From positions 11,666 through 57,840 of the forward strand of contig CADAOB010000013.1 in assembly GCA_902789445.1 (NCBI GenBank): 46,175 bases of DNA. Reading direction: 5' to 3'. Under the pieces are notes generated by a model. It did not search any database and was not told the DNA's origin. It worked only from the letters and a program-made list of their open reading frames with translations. The position numbers were made by a program, and so were the translations under genes. Position 1 is the first letter of the stretch; every line of letters starts with the position of its first letter. The stretch is from an uncultured Bacteroidia bacterium (GTDB lineage Bacteria; Bacteroidota; Bacteroidia; Bacteroidales; UBA932). This document shows, piece after piece, positions 27,535 through 46,175 of this stretch.

Positions 27535-27651
27535 TTGCGCTGCAACGGACGCATTTGACTGTCAGTGGTTTACGCAATGTGATCCCCCTCGAAATGAGGG
27601 GGATCACATTGCGTAATCGGCTGAAATCCATATGTGTACATTGCAGCGGAA
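27535..27651. repeat. Hairpin element A (MITE-like), left of the cobalamin cluster
   Basis: Ends are TTGCGCTGCAA (27535-27545) and its near-perfect inverse TTGCAGCGGAA (27641-27651). The centre is a perfect 21-bp stem (27570-27590 with 27596-27616) around a 5-base loop GAAAT. The whole unit is homologous to element B at 39123-39241 in reverse orientation. Short open frames in it are a by-product. Confidence 0.85.
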
Positions 27652-30341: not shown

Positions 30342-32216
30342 ATGAAACATACCGCCATCATCCTCGTCTCCGAATCCGCGCTGAATCTTGCACAGCGCAT
30401 CGCTAGCGATATGAACCGGAACGATAAACCAGAGCAGCGGAGCGCCATCATCTATACGAAGAACGAAGTCCCCGGCTGCACCGCCATCGGGCCGTATGCC
30501 CCGTTTTTGAAAGAACACTGGCAGGATTTCGAGGCCGTGGTTTTCATCGGTGCCATGGGCATCTGCGTCCGCAGCATCGCTCCCGCGTTGAAAAACAAAT
30601 ACCAGGATCCGCCCGTAGTCTGCATCGACAGTACCGGCAAGTTTGTCGTGCCGGTGGTTTCCGGCCACGTCGGCGGCGCCAATGACCTGGCGCGCCGCCT
30701 CGCCGCCCTGACCGGCGGAACGGCCGTGGTGACCACCCAGAGCGACAACGAAGGGCTCTGGGCCCTCGACATCCTGGACCGCTGCATGGGCTGGCAGGTC
30801 GAGACCACCCCGGCCGGGATGAACCGCGCGGTCTTTGCATTCGTCGAGAAGAAACCCACCGCCCTGCTGCTGGAAGTGCGTGATCCGGGCACCGACTATC
30901 TGGAACGCACCTGTCCGCCGCACGTCAAGGTTTTCTACCGCCGCGAGGACCTGGACCTGAACGGCTTCGCCCTCCTGATCGCCGTCACGCCCTTCCTGTT
31001 GCCCGACGCCGGCCGGGACGCCCTGCCCGGCTTGAACGGGCATCTCCCCGTACTGATCTTCCGGCCGCCGGTGCTGCACCTGGGTTTCGGCTGCCGTAAG
31101 CAATGCCGTCCGGACGGAATTCCCGAAGCCATTGAAACCAAGCTGCGGGAAACGGGCCTCAGCCCGAAATCCATCGCCACGATCGGGACCATCGAACTGA
31201 AAAAAGACGAGCCGCTGCTGCAGGCGTTGTCGGAACGCTGGCCGCAGGCCCGCCCCGTCATCTATCCTGCGGAGACGCTGGCTGCCATTGACGTGCCCAA
31301 TCCGTCGGAGAAGGCGCTTGCGGCCACCGGAAGTGCCGGCGTGGCCGAAGCGGCGGCGCTGGAAGGTGCGCACGGGGGACCGCTCCGGATCGAGAAGCAG
31401 AAGGGCCGGCTGAGCGAAGGCAACGACTTTACGTTCGCCCTGGCCCAGGAAGCCGCGTCCTGCCGGGAAGGCCATATCGAAATCGTCGGCGCCGGTCCCG
31501 GCGACCCGGAGCTGGTGTCGGTACGCGGCAAGCGCTTCCTCCAGCAGGCCGACCTGATTCTCTATGCGGGCAGCCTGGTCCCGGTCGAACTGACGTATTA
31601 TGCGAAACCTGGCTGCGTCGTGCGGAGTTCGGCTTCGATGGACCTGGAGGAGCAGTTCGCCCTGATGAAGGAATTCTATGACCGCGGCCTGCGGGTGGTC
31701 CGGCTTCATACCGGCGACCCCTGTATCTACGGGGCTATCCAGGAACAGATGGCTTTCTTCGACCGCTACGGGATGCATTACCACATTACGCCGGGCATCT
31801 CGGCCTTCCAGGCGGCCGCGGCGGCGCTCCGCTCGCAGTTCACCATTCCCGAGAAGGTACAGACCATCATTCTCACCCGCGGGGAGGGACGGACCCCGAT
31901 GCCTGAAAAAGAACAGCTCCACAAGCTGGCCCAGTCCCAGAGCACCATGTGCATCTATCTGAGCGCCGCCATCGTGGAGGAAGTCCAGGCCGAGCTCCTG
32001 CAGGCCTATCCGCCGGAAACGCCGGTGGCGGCCTGCTACAAACTCACCTGGAAGGAAGAACGCATCTACCGCGGCGAACTCCGCGACCTGGCGAAGATCG
32101 TCCGCGACAACAAGCTCACCCTCACGACTTTGCTGGTGGTCGGCGAGGCCATCGGCAACCGGGAGGGTCTCTCGCGGCTGTATGCCCACGAATTCAAACA
32201 TCTGTTCCGGCCATGA
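30342..32216 (+). CDS. cobM: CbiG-CobM fusion: cobalt-precorrin-5A hydrolase and precorrin-4 C11-methyltransferase
   Basis: A 624-residue fusion. CbiG runs to about 330 (VVFIGAMGICVRSIAP, VPVVSGHVGGANDLARRLAA, the C-terminal LHLGFGCRKQCRPDGIPEAI). A linker of about 50 residues follows, and CobM/CbiF starts at about 377 (IEIVGAGPGDPELVSVRGKR, ILYAGSLVP, LHTGDPCIYGAIQEQ, TPGISAFQAAAAALRSQFTI). CbiG opens the delta-lactone and loses acetaldehyde in the anaerobic route, so its presence with CbiD indicates early cobalt insertion. It starts 7 bases after cobL and overlaps cobK-cbiD (ATGA). Confidence 0.92.
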   Translation: MKHTAIILVSESALNLAQRIASDMNRNDKPEQRSAIIYTKNEVPGCTAIGPYAPFLKEHWQDFEAVVFIGAMGICVRSIAPALKNKYQDPPVVCIDSTGKFVVPVVSGHVGGANDLARRLAALTGGTAVVTTQSDNEGLWALDILDRCMGWQVETTPAGMNRAVFAFVEKKPTALLLEVRDPGTDYLERTCPPHVKVFYRREDLDLNGFALLIAVTPFLLPDAGRDALPGLNGHLPVLIFRPPVLHLGFGCRKQCRPDGIPEAIETKLRETGLSPKSIATIGTIELKKDEPLLQALSERWPQARPVIYPAETLAAIDVPNPSEKALAATGSAGVAEAAALEGAHGGPLRIEKQKGRLSEGNDFTFALAQEAASCREGHIEIVGAGPGDPELVSVRGKRFLQQADLILYAGSLVPVELTYYAKPGCVVRSSASMDLEEQFALMKEFYDRGLRVVRLHTGDPCIYGAIQEQMAFFDRYGMHYHITPGISAFQAAAAALRSQFTIPEKVQTIILTRGEGRTPMPEKEQLHKLAQSQSTMCIYLSAAIVEEVQAELLQAYPPETPVAACYKLTWKEERIYRGELRDLAKIVRDNKLTLTTLLVVGEAIGNREGLSRLYAHEFKHLFRP

Positions 32217-34153
32217 TCCTGATTCTCGGCGGAACGACGGAAGGCCGGCTGGCCGTGCGGGTCGCCGATGCGGCGGGGTCGCCGTATTGGTACTCCACGC
32301 GCGGGGACCAGCAGCAGATAGAATGCAAGCACGGCACGCACATCAGCGGCGCGCTCGACGAGGCTGCGATGGCAGCTTTCTGCACGGCGCACGGCATCCG
32401 TCTGCTGGTCGATGCGGCCCATCCGTTCGCCGTGGAATTGCACCGGACCGTCGCCGCCGTGGCCGAGTCGCTCGACCTGCCGGTGGTCCGCGTGGAGCGG
32501 GTCTATGCAGACCCCGCCGGCATGTCCGGCTCCGACCGGGCCTCCCTCCGCTGGTGTGACGATTATGCCGATGCCATCCGGCAGCTGGAAGCCGACGGAA
32601 TCGATCGCCTGCTGGCCCTTACGGGCGTGCAGACCATCGGAAAATTGCGGCCGTTCTGGAGCCGGCACACCTGCTGGTTCCGGATCCTGCGGCGGGAAGA
32701 ATCTCTGGAAAAGGCGCGTCAGCAGGGTTTTCCGGAAGAACGGCTGGCCTATTATGAAGAAGATGATGACGCCGCGCTGATCGCCCGGCTTCGCCCGGAG
32801 GCGATCCTGACCAAGGAAAGCGGCGAATCGGGCGGCTTCGGCCAGAAGCTTGCAGCCGCCCGGGCCGCCGGCATTCCCGTCTATGCCGTACGGCGGCCGG
32901 CGCTGCCTGCCGGTTTCGAAGTCGTGACCGGCGAACACGGCCTGCGCAAGGCCATCGAACGGCTGGTCCCGGATTTCTTTCCGCTGCGCAGCGGCTTTAC
33001 CACAGGGGCTTGCGCGACAGCTGCCGCCAAGGCCGCCTTGCTGGCCCTGCTGGGCCATCCGGCCGGCGACCGTGTCGAAATCACCTTCCCCGACGGCGAA
33101 ATTCTCGCGCTGCCCGTAGCCGATGTCCACCTGCTGCCGCCTCCGCCGCGGGACGAGGCGAATCCACGCGCGGCAGAACCTTTTTTGACCCAGCGAGGGC
33201 GCTTGGGTCAAAAAGAACCTGCCGCTCCACCAGGCCAGCCCGAGCCTCGCCCCGCGGCGGAGGCGGCGACGGCGACGGTCATCAAGGATGCGGGCGACGA
33301 TCCCGATGTGACCAATGGCTATCCGATCGTAGCGACGGTGGCCTTCAGCCAGGAGCCCGGCATCCATTTCCTGCAGGGCGAGGGCGTCGGCCGCGTCACC
33401 CTGCCCGGCCTGGGCCTGCCAGTCGGCGGCCCGGCCATCAACCGCGTGCCGCGCCAGATGATGGAGCGGGAACTCACGGCCCTCTGCGACAGCGGCCTCG
33501 ATGTGACGATATCCGTGCCGGGCGGCCGGGAACTGGCCGGGCGGACCTTCAACCCCAAGTTGGGCGTCGTGGACGGCATCTCCATCATCGGCACCTCCGG
33601 CATCGTGCGACCCTTCTCGAACGAGGCATTCGTGGATGCCATCCGCAAAGAAATCGAAGTGGCCAAAGCCGTCGGGGTCCGGCACCTGGTCATCAACTCC
33701 GGCGCCAAGAGCGAAGCCTTCCTCAAGAAACGCTTCCCCGACCTGCCTCCGCAGGCTTTTGTCCACTATGGAAATTTTATTGGCGAGACCCTGCGCATTG
33801 CCGTCGCCCTGGGCGTTCCGCAGGTGACCATGGGCATCATGCTCGGCAAGGCCGTCAAACTGGCCGAAGGCCACCTCGACACCCATAGCAAAAGCGTCGT
33901 GATGAACAAGGTTTTTCTCAGGGAAGTCGCTGCCGGAGCCGGCTGCTCGCCGGCGGCGGCAGCTGCCATCGACAGCCTGACGCTTGCCCGTGAACTTTGG
34001 CACGGACTCTCCGGAGATGATGCCGCCCGTTTCTTTTCCGCCCTCCTCGACCGCTGTGCCGCAGCATGCGCAACTGTCTGTCCCAGGCCCGGTCCGACAA
34101 ACCTCACCATCCTCCTCCTGGACGAGGACGGAAACATCTTCATCGATTCTTAA
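32213..34153 (+). CDS. cbiD: CobK-CbiD fusion: precorrin-6A reductase and cobalt-precorrin-5B C1-methyltransferase, with an internal palindromic insert
   Basis: A 646-residue fusion from the ATG at 32213, overlapping the previous stop by four bases. CobK/CbiJ (about 1-250) starts ILILGGTTEGRLAVRVADAA and has LVDAAHPFAVELHRT and LALTGVQTIGKL. CbiD follows from about 258 (LRSGFTTGACATAAAKAALL, VIKDAGDDPDVTNG, LNPKLGVVDG-like FNPKLGVVDGISIIGTSGIV, VHYGNFIGETLRIA). CbiD methylates C1 in the anaerobic pathway. Residues 309-352, between the DGEILALPVADVHLLP strand and ATATVIKDAG, are encoded by a 132-bp palindrome absent from the family, giving a Pro/Arg/Ala-rich loop. Confidence 0.9.
   Translation: MILILGGTTEGRLAVRVADAAGSPYWYSTRGDQQQIECKHGTHISGALDEAAMAAFCTAHGIRLLVDAAHPFAVELHRTVAAVAESLDLPVVRVERVYADPAGMSGSDRASLRWCDDYADAIRQLEADGIDRLLALTGVQTIGKLRPFWSRHTCWFRILRREESLEKARQQGFPEERLAYYEEDDDAALIARLRPEAILTKESGESGGFGQKLAAARAAGIPVYAVRRPALPAGFEVVTGEHGLRKAIERLVPDFFPLRSGFTTGACATAAAKAALLALLGHPAGDRVEITFPDGEILALPVADVHLLPPPPRDEANPRAAEPFLTQRGRLGQKEPAAPPGQPEPRPAAEAATATVIKDAGDDPDVTNGYPIVATVAFSQEPGIHFLQGEGVGRVTLPGLGLPVGGPAINRVPRQMMERELTALCDSGLDVTISVPGGRELAGRTFNPKLGVVDGISIIGTSGIVRPFSNEAFVDAIRKEIEVAKAVGVRHLVINSGAKSEAFLKKRFPDLPPQAFVHYGNFIGETLRIAVALGVPQVTMGIMLGKAVKLAEGHLDTHSKSVVMNKVFLREVAAGAGCSPAAAAAIDSLTLARELWHGLSGDDAARFFSALLDRCAAACATVCPRPGPTNLTILLLDEDGNIFIDS
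33136..33267. repeat. 132-bp palindromic element inserted in frame in cbiD
   Basis: Outer arms 33136-33159 and 33244-33267 are inverted copies with 23 of 24 bases paired. Inner arms 33170-33195 and 33200-33225 (GCGGCAG..TTTTTTGACCC and GGGTCAAAAA..CTGCCGC) form a second long stem with a 4-base loop AGGG. The total length is exactly 44 codons, there is no stop in the frame used, and removing it restores the normal CbiD sequence. Confidence 0.85.
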
Positions 34154-39080: not shown

Positions 39081-39122
39081 GACGCAACGGGCGTTCCGCC
39101 CTCATTCTGCGAGCGCCCTGCT

Positions 39123-39241
39123 TTTGCGCTGCAATGTACACATCAGTAAATCAGCGACTTACGTAAGTTGACCCCTTCGTTTTTGGAGGGGGTCAACTTG
39201 CGTAAACGGCTGATAGTCAGGTGCGTCCGTTGCAGCGCAAA
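39123..39241. repeat. Hairpin element B (MITE-like), right of the cobalamin cluster
   Basis: Perfect 12-bp terminal inverted repeats (39123-39134, 39230-39241; core TTGCGCTGCAA). The central stem runs 39159-39178 with 39186-39205, with one or two G-T type pairs, around a 7-base loop. Homologous in reverse orientation to element A: both have CTGCAACGGACGCA and TGTGTACATTGCAGCG on the corresponding arms, while the stem sequences near the loop differ but remain paired. Confidence 0.85.
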
Positions 39242-39258
39242 GGCCGTCGGTTTCCCTC

Positions 39259-40364: not shown

Positions 40365-42374
40365 ATGAAAACTTTCAAGAATAAAACGTTTTGGTGCGGC
40401 CTTCTTTGCGCCGTCGCCCTCTTCGGCTTCACGCCGCTCCTCCTGACTTCCTGTGAGCAGGATCCCGCTGAGATCAATGTCACGCTTGAAACCGACATGA
40501 GTTCCATCATTGCGGCCATCAACAATGCCAATACCGCGCTCTCCGACAAACTGGCGACCATCGAAAAGGCCATGTCCGACGGTCTGGCCGACAGCCAGGC
40601 CGCCATCAAGCTGATCCAGCAGGCCGTAGAGTCGATGAACGGTACGATGGCCGAGAAACTGGCGGCCATCGAAACGGCCATCAAGTCGCAGACCACGAGC
40701 CTGGAAACGAAGATTGCCCTGGTCGAGGCGGCCGTGAAGAACGGCTTCGCCGACGCGAAGACGCAGCAGGAACTCCTGCAGCAGGCCATCGAATCGATGG
40801 GCGGCACGAGGGCCGAGAAGCTCGCCGCCATCGAGACGGCCGTCAAGGAACAGACCACGGGCCTGGTGACGAAACTCGGCCTGATCGAGGCCGCCGTGAC
40901 GACCGGCCTGGCCGACGTCAAGGATGCGCAGGATTTGATGAAAGAGGCGATCGAGACCCTGGGCGGCACGATGGGAGAGAAGCTCGCCGCCATTGAAAAG
41001 GCGGTCGGCGACCAGACGACCGACCTGGGTGCCAAACTCGCCCTGGTCGAGACGGCGGTGAAGGAAGGCTTCGCCGACCAGAAAGCCCAGGAAGACCTGC
41101 TGAAAGAAGCCATCGAATCGCTGGGCGGAACGATGGAAGAAAAACTCGCGGCTCTCGAAGAGGCAATGAAGAGCCAGACCTCCAGCCTCGAAACGAAACT
41201 TGATGCCATCGAGACGGCGGTGGAGAACGGCGTTGCCGACGCCAAGGAGCAGCGTGAACTGATCCAGAAGGCGGTTGAATCGCTGGAAGGTACGGCCGCC
41301 GAAAGAATGGCGAAGATTGAGCAGGCCATCTCGAGCCAGACGACCACGCTGTCCTCGAAGCTGGCCGCCATCGAGACTGCGTTCAAGAACAGTTCGAGCG
41401 ATGACGCCACGGCGCTGGAAGCCATCAAGACGGCGATCGAGACGTCGGGTACCACCACGGCCGAAAAACTCGCGGCCCTTGAACAGGCCATCAGCGGCCA
41501 GACGACCAGTCTGACGACGAAACTGGCCGCCATCGAGACGGCCGTGACCGGCGGCGTCACCGACGTGACCGGCGCGCTGGCCCTGATCAAGACGGCGGTA
41601 GAAGCCATTCCCGCAGCCCTGACTTCGCTCGACACGGACCTGAGCACCAAGATCGCCGAAGTGGTCACGGCCATCGGCGCCGTCAATACGACGCTCACCA
41701 CCGGCGATGTCGCTACGGCCCTGTCGAACATCCTCGACGCCATCACGAATCAGACCGACTACACCGACATTCTCGAATCCATTCTGGAAAACGTCGAGGC
41801 GCTGGGCGGCACGACGATCCACGGCCACAGATTCGTGGAGATGGGCGACGGCCTGAAATGGGCTACGATGAACGTGGGCGCTACGACTCCGGAAGAATTC
41901 GGCGACTACTTCGCCTGGGGTGAAACGGAACCGAAAAACAGCTTCAGCTGGGACAATTACAAGTATGGGACGGAGGATAACCTGACCAAATACAACGCAT
42001 CCGACGGCAAGGTGACCTTGGATCTTTCCGATGACGCCGCAAGTGCCAATTGGAAAGGTACCTGGCGAATGCCGAAAAGGGCGGAATGGGCCGCCCTGTG
42101 TAATACGACCAACTATACTTGGACGTATGATTCCGAAAAGGGGGGATATACGGTAACAAGCAAAGTCTCAGGATATGAGGGTAACAGTATTTTCATTCCG
42201 GCAGGTTCCTGGTTCGGCGGTCCCGGAGTCGGAGAATATGGTTACTATTGGTCTTCTGAGATGTTTACCGCAACCTATAACCACTCATATATCTTGTTTG
42301 TGGGCCCCACCGAATGGGAAACACGGGCAGCTCTTCGCTATGTTGGGTATTCTGTCCGGGCCGTTTCCGACTAA
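40365..42374 (+). CDS. Stalk lipoprotein 1: six 54-residue repeats and C-terminal FISUMP domain
   Basis: A 669-residue lipoprotein (LLTSC lipobox followed by EQDPAE, an acidic run like the surface-export signal known in Bacteroidota). Residues 92-415 are six tandem 54-residue units, each built of three 18-residue helical segments (EKLAAIETAIKSQT; TSLETKIALVEAAVKNGF; ADAKTQQELLQQAIES), predicting a long rod or coiled coil. After a ~70-residue helical region, residues ~490-669 form a FISUMP-type domain (FVEMGDGLKWATMNVGATTP, YFAWGETEPK, WRMPKRAEWAALC, YYWSSEM, SVRAVSD). It has GGAG eight bases before the ATG. It is inferred to be a surface adhesin or binding protein. Confidence 0.8.
   Translation: MKTFKNKTFWCGLLCAVALFGFTPLLLTSCEQDPAEINVTLETDMSSIIAAINNANTALSDKLATIEKAMSDGLADSQAAIKLIQQAVESMNGTMAEKLAAIETAIKSQTTSLETKIALVEAAVKNGFADAKTQQELLQQAIESMGGTRAEKLAAIETAVKEQTTGLVTKLGLIEAAVTTGLADVKDAQDLMKEAIETLGGTMGEKLAAIEKAVGDQTTDLGAKLALVETAVKEGFADQKAQEDLLKEAIESLGGTMEEKLAALEEAMKSQTSSLETKLDAIETAVENGVADAKEQRELIQKAVESLEGTAAERMAKIEQAISSQTTTLSSKLAAIETAFKNSSSDDATALEAIKTAIETSGTTTAEKLAALEQAISGQTTSLTTKLAAIETAVTGGVTDVTGALALIKTAVEAIPAALTSLDTDLSTKIAEVVTAIGAVNTTLTTGDVATALSNILDAITNQTDYTDILESILENVEALGGTTIHGHRFVEMGDGLKWATMNVGATTPEEFGDYFAWGETEPKNSFSWDNYKYGTEDNLTKYNASDGKVTLDLSDDAASANWKGTWRMPKRAEWAALCNTTNYTWTYDSEKGGYTVTSKVSGYEGNSIFIPAGSWFGGPGVGEYGYYWSSEMFTATYNHSYILFVGPTEWETRAALRYVGYSVRAVSD
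40638..41609 (+). repeat. Six tandem 162-bp repeats (stalk lipoprotein 1)
   Basis: Six units of 54 codons with no length change between units. Each begins near (G)GTMAEKLAAIE and ends near LLQQAIESL. Unit 4 is almost the same in all three paralogues. Confidence 0.85.
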
Positions 42375-42392: not shown

Positions 42393-44585
42393 ATGAAACG
42401 TTTTACTGACAGAATCATACGTTGCGGCTTGCTGGTCGTTTTCCTGCTGGCGTTTATGGCGTGCGAGAAAGAGCAGGAGCCGGTCGACATCACGTTGCGG
42501 CCGGATTATAGTGCCGTCATTGCGGCCATCAACGATGCAAACGCGTCGTTGACGAGCAAGCTGTCACTGATCGAGTCGTCACTCACCGAGGGTTTCTCCG
42601 GCAACGAGTCGGCCCTGAAACTGGTCCGGCAAGCCGTGGCGTCGATGAGTGGCACGGCTGCCGAGAAGCTCTCGGCCATCGAAACGGCCATCCAGTCGCA
42701 GACCTCGAGTCTGGAGATGAAGCTCGCGCTGGTCGAAGCGGCCGTGAAGGAAGGCTTCGTCGACGCGAAGACCCAGCAGGAACTGCTCCAGCAGGCCATC
42801 GAGTCGCTGGGCGGCACGATGGCCGAGAAACTTGCTGCCGTCGAGACGGCCGTTCAATCCGAGACGACGGGTCTGGAGACGAAGCTCGGCCTGGTTGAAG
42901 CCGCCGTGACGACCGGCCTGGCCGATGTCAAGACGGCCCAGGATCTGGTCAAGGAAGCGATCGAGGCCACTGGCAGCACGCTTGAAGAGAAACTCACTGC
43001 CATCGAAACCGCCCTTCAGAGCCAGACGACCGACCTGGGCGCCAAACTCGCTCTGGTCGAGACAGCGGTGAAGGAAGGCTTTGCCGATGCCAATGCGCGA
43101 CAGGAGCTGCTGCAGCAGGCCGTCGAGTCGCTGGGCGGCACGATGGAAGAGAAACTCGCCGCCCTCGAAGAGGCGATGAAGAGCCAGACCTCCAGCCTCG
43201 AAACAAAACTCGATGCCATCGAGACGGCGGTCGAGAACGGCCTGGCCGACGCCAAGGAGCAGCGTGCGCTGATCCAGAAGGCGGTCGAATCGCTGGCAGG
43301 CACGGAAACCGAGAAACTCGCGAAGATCGAACAGGCCATCACAAGCCAGACGACCACGCTGTCGTCGAAACTGGCCGCCATCGAGACGGCCTTCAAGAAC
43401 GGTGCGAGCGAAGATGCCGCTACACTGGAAGCCATCAAGACGGCGATCGAGACGTCGGGCAGTACTACGGCCGAGAAACTCGAGGCCCTCGAACAGGCGA
43501 TCAGCGGCCAGACGACCGGCCTGACGACGAAGCTGGAAGCTATTGAGGCGGCCGTGACCGGTGGCGTCGCCGACGTCACCGACGCGCTGGCCCTGGTCAA
43601 GACGGCGGTGGAAGCCATCCCCGCAGCCCTGACTTCGCTCGATACGGACCTGAGCGCCAAGATCGCCGACGTGGTCACGGCCATCGACGCTGTCCAGACG
43701 ACACTTACCACGGGTGAAGTCGCAACTGTCCTGTCGGACATCCTCGATGCCATCACGGGCCAGACCGACTACAGCGAAATCCTTACCGCCATTCAGGAAG
43801 CTGTAGCGACGATCGAACCTGCGCACGGCTCTCCCAAAGACCTTACCGTCTGGTGTTATCCCAATGCGACCTTTGACCTCGATCTGTCAAAGGCCGTGGA
43901 GGTCAGCGATATCTTTTGCGCGCTCCATGCGTCGAAGGACGGTTCCTATACGGCCGATAACATCGAGACCGTTGAGTTCCTGCCTTTGAATGACTCAATC
44001 GCACCGGTTCAGGTTACATTTGACAAGGACAGGCATTTCCTTCGTTTCCATCCCGATACGACCGGAAGCCGGGTCTGGCGTAATTTTCAGGATTCCTCCG
44101 GGTTTAAGAATGAAGGTGTGACAGGCAAGCTGATCCTGACTGACCGTTGGAAGCAGAAGGACACGATTTTCAATATGGTGACTCCGCGTGGTGAAAAACT
44201 GTTCAAGATCAGTTGGTTCAATGCCTCGGGTTTCTCCTGGAGAAAGAAAGTGTCCATGAGCATGATCAACGACAATAAAGTGACCCTCGTGTTGGATGAA
44301 TTTTCCAGGGTCCTCGGGTTCGACTATGATAAGTTGAAGAAATCCTGGTATATGATCAATACAGCGTTCGAAAAGTACGGGAATTATAAATTTATAACTG
44401 GCAAGTTCAAGCCGGAGGAAACTGCGCTGGAATTGGAGTTTGCTGACGATTATCTGGTAGGCGACAAATTCGGTTTGATCGGGACAATTAGCGTCTGTGT
44501 CGAACCCGACGAGTGGTCTTTCGCTTTCAGCCCTGTTCAAATGAAGTTCCGCTTCGACTTGACGGTGGAGATCACCAATAATTAA
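42393..44585 (+). CDS. Stalk lipoprotein 2: six 54-residue repeats and a different C-terminal domain
   Basis: A 730-residue lipoprotein (MKRFTDRIIRCGLLVVFLLA, lipobox FMAC followed by EKEQE, again a surface-export-like acidic run). Residues 86-409 are six 54-residue units matching those of its neighbours position by position. Then comes the same ~65-residue helical collar (AALTSLDTDLSAKIADVVTA, ILDAITGQTDYSEIL). The last ~255 residues (from SPKDLTVWCYPNATFDLDLS) are a beta-rich domain unrelated to FISUMP that I do not recognise; it contains LRFHPDTTGSRVWRNFQDSS and ISVCVEPDEWSFAFSPVQMK. It starts 18 bases after gene 1. Confidence 0.8.
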   Translation: MKRFTDRIIRCGLLVVFLLAFMACEKEQEPVDITLRPDYSAVIAAINDANASLTSKLSLIESSLTEGFSGNESALKLVRQAVASMSGTAAEKLSAIETAIQSQTSSLEMKLALVEAAVKEGFVDAKTQQELLQQAIESLGGTMAEKLAAVETAVQSETTGLETKLGLVEAAVTTGLADVKTAQDLVKEAIEATGSTLEEKLTAIETALQSQTTDLGAKLALVETAVKEGFADANARQELLQQAVESLGGTMEEKLAALEEAMKSQTSSLETKLDAIETAVENGLADAKEQRALIQKAVESLAGTETEKLAKIEQAITSQTTTLSSKLAAIETAFKNGASEDAATLEAIKTAIETSGSTTAEKLEALEQAISGQTTGLTTKLEAIEAAVTGGVADVTDALALVKTAVEAIPAALTSLDTDLSAKIADVVTAIDAVQTTLTTGEVATVLSDILDAITGQTDYSEILTAIQEAVATIEPAHGSPKDLTVWCYPNATFDLDLSKAVEVSDIFCALHASKDGSYTADNIETVEFLPLNDSIAPVQVTFDKDRHFLRFHPDTTGSRVWRNFQDSSGFKNEGVTGKLILTDRWKQKDTIFNMVTPRGEKLFKISWFNASGFSWRKKVSMSMINDNKVTLVLDEFSRVLGFDYDKLKKSWYMINTAFEKYGNYKFITGKFKPEETALELEFADDYLVGDKFGLIGTISVCVEPDEWSFAFSPVQMKFRFDLTVEITNN
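42648..43619 (+). repeat. Six tandem 162-bp repeats (stalk lipoprotein 2)
   Basis: Same number, length and register as in the genes on either side; units correspond one to one, pointing to duplication of whole genes rather than independent repeat growth. Confidence 0.85.
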
Positions 44586-44603: not shown

Positions 44604-46175
44604 ATGAAACGTTTTACGAATAGAATCATACATTGCGGCTGGCTGGTTTCTTTCCTGTTGCTGGTGCCGCTTGCGTCGGTAACGTTTACCGCGTGCGGCA
44701 ACCCTGCTCCGGAACTCAACATTTCGATGGAGACCGATTTCAGCGGTGTGCTTGCGGCGCTAAACAACGCGAATACGTCGTTGAGCGACAAGCTTTCTTC
44801 GATTGAAAAGGCGATGTCCGACGGCCTGGCAGACAGTCAGGAAGCGCTCGAAATGGTCCGCAAGGTCGTGGAGTCGATGAACGGCACGATGGCCGAGAAA
44901 CTGGCGGCCATCGAAACGGCCATCCAGTCGCAGACCACGAGTCTGGAAACGAAGATCGCCTTGGTTGAGGCCGCCGTGAAGGAAGGCTTCGCCGATGCGA
45001 AGACGCAGCAGGAGCTGCTGCAGCAGGCCATTGAATCGCTGGGCGGCACGATGGCCGAGAAACTGGCGGCCATCGAGACGGCCGTCAAGGAACAGGCGAC
45101 GAGCCTGGAGACGAAGCTCAGCCTGGTCGAAGCCGCCGTGACCAACGGCCTGGCCGACGTCAAGACGGCCCAGGAGCTGGTTAAGGAAGCAATCGAAGCC
45201 CTGGGCGGCACAATGGAGGAGAAACTTGCCGCCATCGAAACGGCTCTCCAAAGCCAGACGACCGACCTGGGCGCCAAATTCGCCCTGGTCGAGACGGCGG
45301 TGAAGGAAGGCTTTGCCGACCAGAAAGCCCAGGAAGACTTGCTGAAAGAAGCCATCGAGTCGCTGCAGGGTACTGTTGAAGAGAAACTCGCTGCCCTCGA
45401 AGAAGCGATGAAGAGCCAGACCTCCAGCCTGGAAACGAAACTGGATGCCATCGAGACGGCGGTGGAGAACGGCGTTGCCGACGCCAAGGAGCAGCGTGCG
45501 CTGATTCAAAAGGCGGTCGAATCGCTGGCAGGCACGGAGGCCGAGAAACTTGCGAAGATCGAGCAGGCCATTACGAGCCAGACGACCACGCTGTCGTCGA
45601 AGCTGGCCACCATCGAGGCGGCTGTCAAGAACGGTGCGAGCGACGAAGCCACGGCACTGGAAGCCATTAAGACGGCGATTGAGACGTCGGGCACCACCAC
45701 GGCGGAGAAACTCACGGCCCTCGAACAGGCAATTGGCGGCCAGACGACCGACTTGACGACGAAGCTTGTGGCGATTCAGCAAGCCGTGACAGGTGGCGTC
45801 GCCGACGTCACCGACGCGCTGGCCCTGGTCAAGACGGCGGTGGAAGCCATCCCTGGCTCCCTGACATCGCTCGACACGGACCTGAGCGCCAAGATCGCCG
45901 AAGTGTTGACGGCCATCGGCGCCGTCAACACCACGCTCACCACCGGCGCTGTCGCCACGGCACTGTCGAACATCCTCGATGCCATCACGGGCCAAACTGA
46001 CTATAGTGACATCCTCACAACCATCCTGGAAGTCCTCGAAGTCTTGGCCCCCAAGGAAATCAACGGCCACGCCTATGTGGAGATGGGCGATGGCCTCAAA
46101 TGGGCCACCTGCAACATCGGCGCGGAGAATCCGTGGGACTACGGCGACTACTACGCCTGGGGCGAGACGGCCACG
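44604..46175 (+). CDS. Stalk lipoprotein 3: six 54-residue repeats, FISUMP domain cut by the window end
   Basis: The frame is open from the ATG at 44604 to the last base (524 codons), so the gene continues beyond the window. The start (MKRFTNRIIHCGWLVSFLLL) is nearly that of paralogue 2; the lipobox is FTAC followed by GNPAPE, without the acidic run of the other two. Residues 93-416 are six 54-residue units. After the shared helical collar, a FISUMP domain begins (EINGHAYVEMGDGLKWATCN, then YYAWGETAT at the edge), as in paralogue 1. Eighteen bases separate it from gene 2, the same as between genes 1 and 2. Confidence 0.8.
   Translation, partial: MKRFTNRIIHCGWLVSFLLLVPLASVTFTACGNPAPELNISMETDFSGVLAALNNANTSLSDKLSSIEKAMSDGLADSQEALEMVRKVVESMNGTMAEKLAAIETAIQSQTTSLETKIALVEAAVKEGFADAKTQQELLQQAIESLGGTMAEKLAAIETAVKEQATSLETKLSLVEAAVTNGLADVKTAQELVKEAIEALGGTMEEKLAAIETALQSQTTDLGAKFALVETAVKEGFADQKAQEDLLKEAIESLQGTVEEKLAALEEAMKSQTSSLETKLDAIETAVENGVADAKEQRALIQKAVESLAGTEAEKLAKIEQAITSQTTTLSSKLATIEAAVKNGASDEATALEAIKTAIETSGTTTAEKLTALEQAIGGQTTDLTTKLVAIQQAVTGGVADVTDALALVKTAVEAIPGSLTSLDTDLSAKIAEVLTAIGAVNTTLTTGAVATALSNILDAITGQTDYSDILTTILEVLEVLAPKEINGHAYVEMGDGLKWATCNIGAENPWDYGDYYAWGETAT
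44880..45851 (+). repeat. Six tandem 162-bp repeats (stalk lipoprotein 3)
   Basis: Identical architecture to the other two arrays. Unit 4 (EEKLAALEEAMKSQTSSLET then KLDAIETAVENG) is shared almost unchanged, suggesting recent duplication or gene conversion. Confidence 0.85.

Follow-up and report, generated by a model that had tools for sequence, protein, structure and literature searches.

The window analysed here, a stretch of 46,175 nucleotides, holds a long palindrome within an open reading frame, which raises the question of what kind of element this is and how it can persist inside a conserved gene. The host is a fusion of CbiJ and CbiD, recognized by Pfam on 32213-34150 with E-values of 3.2e-46 and 3.5e-88, respectively, and the insert at 33136-33267 lies in frame within the CbiD part. 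The features defined in the window are listed below, the strand being given where one was assigned.

32213..34153, + strand: host gene, CbiJ (precorrin-6x reductase)-CbiD fusion, an ORF that is open through the insert
33131..33159: 5' outer arm; near-perfect 24-bp part at 33136-33159, 29 nt with mismatches
33160..33167: 8-nt spacer GAATCCAC; family consensus approximately ..TCCNNC; fixed 8/7 outer-stem register in the 58-copy alignment
33168..33236, + strand: 69-nt core common to the family, from the nhmmer alignment of copies and the covariance model
33170..33176: 5' side of the middle stem, GCGGCAG, partner of 33219-33225
33177..33179: AAC side of the AAC/AAC internal loop, opposite 33216-33218
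33180..33215: inner hairpin, with a stem that varies among copies and the loop AGGG at 33196-33199
33219..33225: 3' side of the middle stem, CTGCCGC, partner of 33170-33176
33226..33236: conserved unpaired tail TCCACCAGGCC, near-invariant alignment columns
33237..33243: 7-nt spacer AGCCCGA; fixed outer-stem register in the copy alignment
33244..33272: 3' outer arm, whose distal 7 nt are host codons of the ATATVIKD motif

A nested palindrome inserted in frame in cbiD

Folding predicted three stacked stems, that is the outer arms, the middle stem GCGGCAG/CTGCCGC with the AAC/AAC internal loop, and the inner hairpin. The original prediction of an in-frame palindromic insert agrees with what we observed for the outer arms, since 33136-33159 and 33244-33267 are 96% complementary over 24 nt, with one mismatch. 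The inner arms (33170-33195 and 33200-33225, around AGGG) fold together as had been proposed, but they do not pair perfectly: in the window they form 7 bp, the AAC/AAC internal loop and a further stretch of about 15 bp interrupted by two single-base bulges, and they are absent from the output of an ungapped inverted-repeat finder. Likewise, the proposed length of exactly 44 codons stands in that the insert counts 132 nt, contains no stop and leaves the ORF continuous; its limits are not sharp, because the arms merge into host sequence and the inserts of filled orthologues differ in length. The RNA-folding check proposed at the outset returned a strong nested hairpin, the predicted fold of the 183-nt region in the window being 6.3 s.d. 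more stable than those of 300 codon-shuffled versions. When CbiD was aligned with 1SR8, the insertion site fell between segments matching neighbouring parts of it (residues 38-73, and 77 on). On this one alignment, the position is probably a turn between strands, where an extra surface loop may be tolerated.

A family of three-stem elements found within one genus

The core is found seven further times in the same 2.26-Mb genome (E 2e-21 to 3.2e-6), which makes eight copies; therefore, as had been argued from the window itself, it is not a chance palindrome. An initial DNA search gave matches to the core in 15 of 37 genus genomes, counting its own, and no match in 24 genomes that represent other families of the order. 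With at most 90 candidates scored per genome, the covariance model then matched 153 times at E values of no more than 0.01, the matches being spread over 22 of the 40 genus genomes. Under stricter filters and with at most 12 candidates per genome, it matched nowhere in 294 other Bacteroidales genomes, three of which are from the same family. Hence the copies expected elsewhere, if the insert belonged to a family, exist in its own genome and in 21 others from the genus. Copy number ranged from 1 to 23 per genome, with zero in 18 of the 40 genus genomes, many of which are incomplete.

A search with the core pattern returned 47 named stretches, 43 of them from Bacteroidales or Bacteroidia assemblies, many titled rumen or omasum. 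The other four (Deltaproteobacteria, Desulfobacteraceae, Spirochaetota and Dadabacteria) were taken as chance matches, two being kept by the profile but with weak scores of 17 and 19 bits. Rfam gave six matches, every one under the threshold of its family and none over the element. A phage or viral origin was rejected, as viral contigs contained no exact pattern match and phages no blastn match, and plasmids yielded a single match with 34% coverage and E 0.5. A reading as attC or another integron site was considered and then set aside.

By aligning 58 copies, we found a 69-nt core with the well-kept motifs GCGCG, CAGAACC, AAAGAACC and CTCCACCAGGCC, separated from the outer arms by spacers fixed at 8 and 7 nt. 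Changes on both sides of a pair were found in 454 paired cells compared to 231 +/- 13 in shuffled alignments, and they affected all 18 outer pairs and 11 of the 15 inner pairs. Pairing was possible in 74% of the cells (57% for the outer stem alone) compared to 35-45% when the partner was slid. The number of further pair types was not distinct, being equalled or exceeded in 51 of 500 shuffles. By eye, the middle stems vary among subfamilies yet remain complementary. The copies of G029 and G019 (L236-L240, L251 and L266) form a distant subfamily with the tail CTCCACCAGGC and a different, AT-richer inner hairpin.

Then, we asked where the copies reside. After leaving out seven copies at locus edges, copies with a profile score below 30 and duplicates, 63 of 134 scored copies had an open and coding-like frame on both sides in what is a coarse test; of these, 35 lie along the gene (+) and 28 against it (-), and each of the six frames is represented, five by more than one copy. 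Random segments from the same loci passed in 1585 of 2257 cases (70%), so that by this coarse test copies are less often genic than expected by chance. For instance, the test gave L004 an antisense frame, although one comparison groups this copy with those of the aminotransferase and another identified a sense frame. Protein comparison is firmer for placing copies in genes. By Pfam, the hosts include ABC-F proteins (in two main loops), CbiD, glycerate kinase, an aminotransferase and an HI0933-like protein, along with RNA methyltransferases, GH43 and GH3 enzymes, the DNA polymerase III clamp loader subunit and others. At L098:1725-3359, one open frame carries glycerate kinase and ribonuclease HII domains, the element being in the kinase part. 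The copies thus form a family of three nested stems that occurs in frame inside genes and also outside the frames tested.

The same gene positions are filled in many species, in both orientations

We found cbiD in 24 of the 40 genus genomes, 23 of them readable at the site. Ten of these orthologues are filled, all in frame and with no stop, the element running along cbiD in five (G000, G034, G028, G023 and G031) and against it in the other five (G063, G011, G018, G036 and G007). The core is absent in 12, one of which (G003) has extra residues of unclear origin. G010 retains an in-frame piece of the element, CACGCGGCAGAACCCTTC. The possibility had been raised that orthologues share the inserted residues in the absence of palindromic DNA; what we found is that 12 of 23 do not have the core and that all ten filled genes carry palindromic DNA, in which the encoded residues differ because both orientations occur. 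For the same reason, a role of the insert at the protein level was rejected. The proposal that this lineage has its own family of coding-compatible palindromes is supported by the copies of the family together with this comparison of cbiD orthologues.

In the cbiD tree, the genes on the longest branches (G062, G014, G019 and G029) are all empty. G004 has no core in cbiD, and shows a short hairpin at the position where its sister G023 has 26-bp arms; with a stability z of -1.9 this hairpin is not special, the other empty sites ranging from -1.9 to +1.4. For glycerate kinase, matches were obtained in 32 of 40 genomes, of which 20 were fetched and 17 readable. Six of the 17 are filled and two (G004 and G011) carry in-frame remnants. 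At several gene positions, the family is present in many species and in both orientations.

Arms often match within a copy but not between species

We compared the outer arms over 16 bp. In cbiD (nine copies) and glycerate kinase (five copies), the two arms of a copy paired with each other at 0.94 and 0.99, compared to 0.44 and 0.48 when the 5' arm of one species was paired with the 3' arm of another. Pairing was complete (16 of 16) in five copies from cbiD and four from glycerate kinase. At ABC-F site a, the values were 0.79 for own and 0.41 for cross pairing, and own pairing was weaker at ABC-F site b (0.72) and in the aminotransferase (0.74). These figures favour own arms, because registers were fitted on each own copy, and the fair baseline, obtained with fitted mismatched arms, is 0.62. 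Across all sites, 71 of 138 copies had an arm pairing of at least 0.75 compared to 12% of mismatched copies, and 0.875 was reached by 41 of 138 compared to 0.3% of the fitted mismatched baseline. Arms are homogenised copy by copy, strongly at cbiD and glycerate kinase and more weakly elsewhere.

In G018 cbiD, 29 of 29 arm positions pair (G-T allowed), 7 nt of them being in the eight-residue stretch ending VIKD, and in G011 and G023 cbiD 26 of 26 do, with 3 and 4 nt within host codons. Since the arms extend into host codons, the palindrome in several species holds an inverted copy of host sequence. At cbiD, the arm finder missed the outer arms of G063, reporting a 10-nt hairpin elsewhere, and gave 9 nt only for G031.

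Orientation, reading phase and core conservation

The sister genomes G028 and G063 (support 100/97) carry cbiD cores that are identical at 62 of 66 positions and oriented in opposite directions, with four-fold sites 79% identical, and the G063 copy is the nearest to the G028 cbiD copy of all those compared. This pair fits an inversion of the core. In addition, the cbiD cores of G000, G018 and G011 are mutually nearest, that of G000 being oriented the other way. As for the reading phase, only +1 or -2 is used by the nine cbiD copies and the seven copies at ABC-F site b, and only +0 or -0 by the five glycerate kinase copies; the phases at these three sites are those that inversion about the centre of the palindrome predicts. 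Exact re-insertion at the same nucleotide would give fixed phases too. At ABC-F site a, 13 of 15 copies obey the phase rule. Two sites do not fit simple inversion: phases are mixed among the five copies in the aminotransferase and among the four in HI0933.

To compare cores, we used seven of the ten filled cbiD copies (21 pairs) and left out G023, G007 and G031, which belong to other subfamilies. The three pairs formed by G000, G018 and G011 have 67, 66 and 64 of 69 core positions identical, with four-fold sites at 52%, 46% and 43%, respectively. Apart from these and the G028/G063 pair, the other 17 pairs keep 34-38 of the 39 junction positions but only 46-58 of the 69 core positions overall, a divergence similar to that of the coding sequence. 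With a simple binomial, the two best core pairs have probabilities of about 5e-17 and 5e-19 at the four-fold rate; if the overall coding identity (0.77) is taken as the rate, the value for the best pair becomes 3e-6. These values are uncorrected for the choice of the best pairs. Among intragenic copies, mean core identity was 0.699 at the same site in different genomes, compared to 0.746 at different sites within one genome and 0.680 at different sites between genomes. Same-site cores are thus barely closer than different-site cores, and less close than cores within one genome, so some replacement or reinsertion must occur. Junction motifs are perhaps held constant in part by exchange or renewed insertion within genomes; the constancy of the core motifs may reflect either renewed mobility or a function that these motifs have themselves. 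The cores of L244 (ABC-F of G004) and L269 (cbiD of G023), in different genes of sister species, are identical at 69 of 69 positions.

Recent amplification and association with Y1 transposases

Outside the tested reading frames, G032 and G007 contain copies that are near-identical, arms included, and have therefore been amplified recently. These copies (L045, L063, L068, L071, L073, L074, L077, L080, L088 and L134 in G032; L212-L226 in G007) lie in part beside short repeats such as CCCGGCTTGACC.

Y1 domains were found in 27 of 40 genus genomes, 25 of them above the curated cut-off; most of these domains lie in open frames roughly 290-390 aa long. They are present in 20 of the 22 genomes with the element compared to 7 of the 18 others (Fisher p 7e-4, uncorrected for kinship and completeness). 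Among the 68 Y1 matches and 150 copies listed, 11 of the 68 Y1 matches share a contig with a copy, and none lies closer than 1.7 kb to one, the nearest being at 1715 bp. By eye, most of the ten Y1 genes that we folded are flanked by nested palindromes of their own with the same general layout (L139 is not); the core motif of the element was not found in these ten loci, and their flanking palindromes are other sequences. Y1/RAYT transposases are candidate mobilisers of the element by association only, and a Y1-type mechanism is plausible only by analogy.

The window also carries another family of nested palindromes, of about 120 nt, at 27535-27651 and 39120-39244, with 67 matches in the genome on both strands; two of its copies, G000:C1:139705-139824 and 141506-141625, bracket a Y1 transposase match. 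Finally, the inverted-repeat matches at 40629-40687, 42670-42828 and 44722-45083 of the window contain GGCCATCGA motifs and possibly belong to a repetitive protein gene.

Comparison with known palindromic elements

The Rickettsia palindromic elements (RPEs) are described as palindromic repeats of about 105-150 bp, found in one genus, both intergenic and in frame within unrelated genes (PMC10969869, PMC2229807). Like them, the family reported here is palindromic, of comparable size range, present in several copies per genome, genus-specific and resident in frame in unrelated protein genes. Unlike them, it belongs to a different phylum, has three nested stems and recurs at one site across many species, where the arms have changed together and are unrelated in sequence between species; it also encodes no single conserved peptide, because both orientations and several reading frames are used. 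By this description, the analogy with RPEs is supported, and we do not claim membership in the Rickettsia families.

REPs are described as short palindromes held to be mobile, some of them intragenic, and two Xanthomonas species carry different REPs at roughly the same position in recB (PMC3733652). The present family shares with REP/REPIN elements a palindromic nature and an occasional intragenic location, but it is longer, its conserved core carries no GTAG or CGTC tag (by eye, in the 58-copy alignment), and no RAYT gene adjoins it among the 68 Y1 matches and 150 copies listed. Some G007 copies do have CGTC, immediately beyond the outer arm. The same source gives the name TIRYT to Y1 transposases flanked by TIRs (PMC3733652), and a Bacteroidetes TnpA-Y1 subclass 2.6 has been described with atypical flanking structures (PMC6006769). 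The ten Y1 genes of this genus that we folded, mostly flanked by nested palindromes of similar layout, resemble both, and the other palindrome family of the window, which brackets a Y1 gene in the genome, shares this layout; these flanking palindromes differ in sequence from the element.

Template switching in quasipalindromes is reported to have two outcomes, arm homogenisation and spacer inversion (PMC8604942), and both are described within coding genes (PMC8604942, PMC8794818). Our copies are similar in that, inside coding genes, arms are homogenised and the spacer may have been inverted. They differ in that the spacer to be inverted is about 84 nt, compared to 3-5 nt among the yeast rows listed (PMC8604942), and in that the arms enclose a conserved mobile core. 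Among open-licence titles and abstracts, we found none describing this family, subscription papers lying mostly outside the scope of the search.

Origin and maintenance of the element

Our preferred reading, to which we give a probability of roughly 0.6, is that of a new genus-restricted, non-autonomous palindromic mobile element of about 120-130 nt, RPE-like, whose arms are rewritten and whose core is inverted by template switching. According to this scenario, copies would have entered tolerant protein loops long ago and, once resident, would be translated as neutral inserts. Switching of the DNA polymerase between the palindromic arms would copy one arm onto the other, would also copy host flank into the palindrome and would sometimes invert the core, and some copies would be lost through in-frame deletion. 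New copies would come from mobilisation of the hairpin; that it moves as single-stranded DNA handled by a Y1/HUH-type enzyme is the likeliest route, but a guess from association only. We infer template switching at these sites from the sequence comparisons, and it leaves the constant unpaired core motifs unexplained.

Several observations could also be explained by repeated independent insertion, in which a target-preferring transposase re-fills the same loops in one orientation or the other, each insertion creating new arms. Different core subfamilies are found at one site (for example G023, G007 and G000 in cbiD), the G004 ABC-F core is identical to that of G023 cbiD, the near-identical copies of G032 and G007 show recent mobility, the element is patchy on the cbiD tree, and phases are mixed at the aminotransferase and HI0933 sites. 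Against this, the cores of G000, G018 and G011 remain mutually nearest despite the opposite orientation in G000, the G028/G063 pair looks like an inversion, and the in-frame remnants in cbiD (G010) and glycerate kinase (G004 and G011) argue for old presence followed by loss. We therefore regard re-insertion as possible but rather unlikely. An improbable alternative is that each copy is a functional hairpin site for binding or processing, selected by the host as a DNA structure regardless of gene and orientation. The frequently paired arms would fit, as would the 3 of 21 cbiD pairs that keep 64-67 of 69 core positions while four-fold sites have fallen to 43-52%. However, most cbiD cores are not specially conserved beyond their junctions, no site that we examined is universal, copies are lost in frame, and numbers vary from 1 to 23 per genome with zero in 18 of 40 (many of them incomplete).

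Splicing of the insert out of the RNA, or its bypass in translation, either of which would give a protein free of it, is very unlikely. The hairpin predicted in the mRNA is strong and the host genes are conserved, but the ten filled cbiD genes keep the frame and have no stop, which splicing would not need; moreover, both orientations occur, so that no single RNA motif is shared, and the 1SR8 alignment puts the insert where an extra loop may be tolerated. We attach next to no weight to a chance palindrome or an assembly artefact. Chimeras can occur in MAGs, and a few contigs of G032 end in a copy, but we found nothing in favour of this possibility, and the recurrence in 22 genomes, in records from different assembly projects, and the covariation of the stems argue against it. 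A doubtful but more far-reaching extension of the preferred reading is active maintenance in addition to replication errors, in which a structure-specific enzyme would repeatedly recognise the core hairpin, flip the core and re-copy host flank into the opposite arm. If true, each copy would rebuild its palindrome at a fixed codon position, the core motifs remaining constant while the gene diverges.

As far as the open-licence literature goes, two aspects are apparently undescribed: the filling of the same codon site in many species and in both orientations, and the combination of a core whose motifs stay constant with flanking arms that match each other but are unrelated in sequence between species. 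The family is a further case of in-frame palindromic DNA in conserved bacterial genes, in a phylum other than that of Rickettsia. Its many orthologous sites amount to a natural experiment on arm matching, on the frequency of inversion and on the tolerance of protein loops. Since some sites combine near-saturated synonymous positions and replaced arms with a near-unchanged core, whether the palindromes are maintained by mutation or by an enzyme can be tested.
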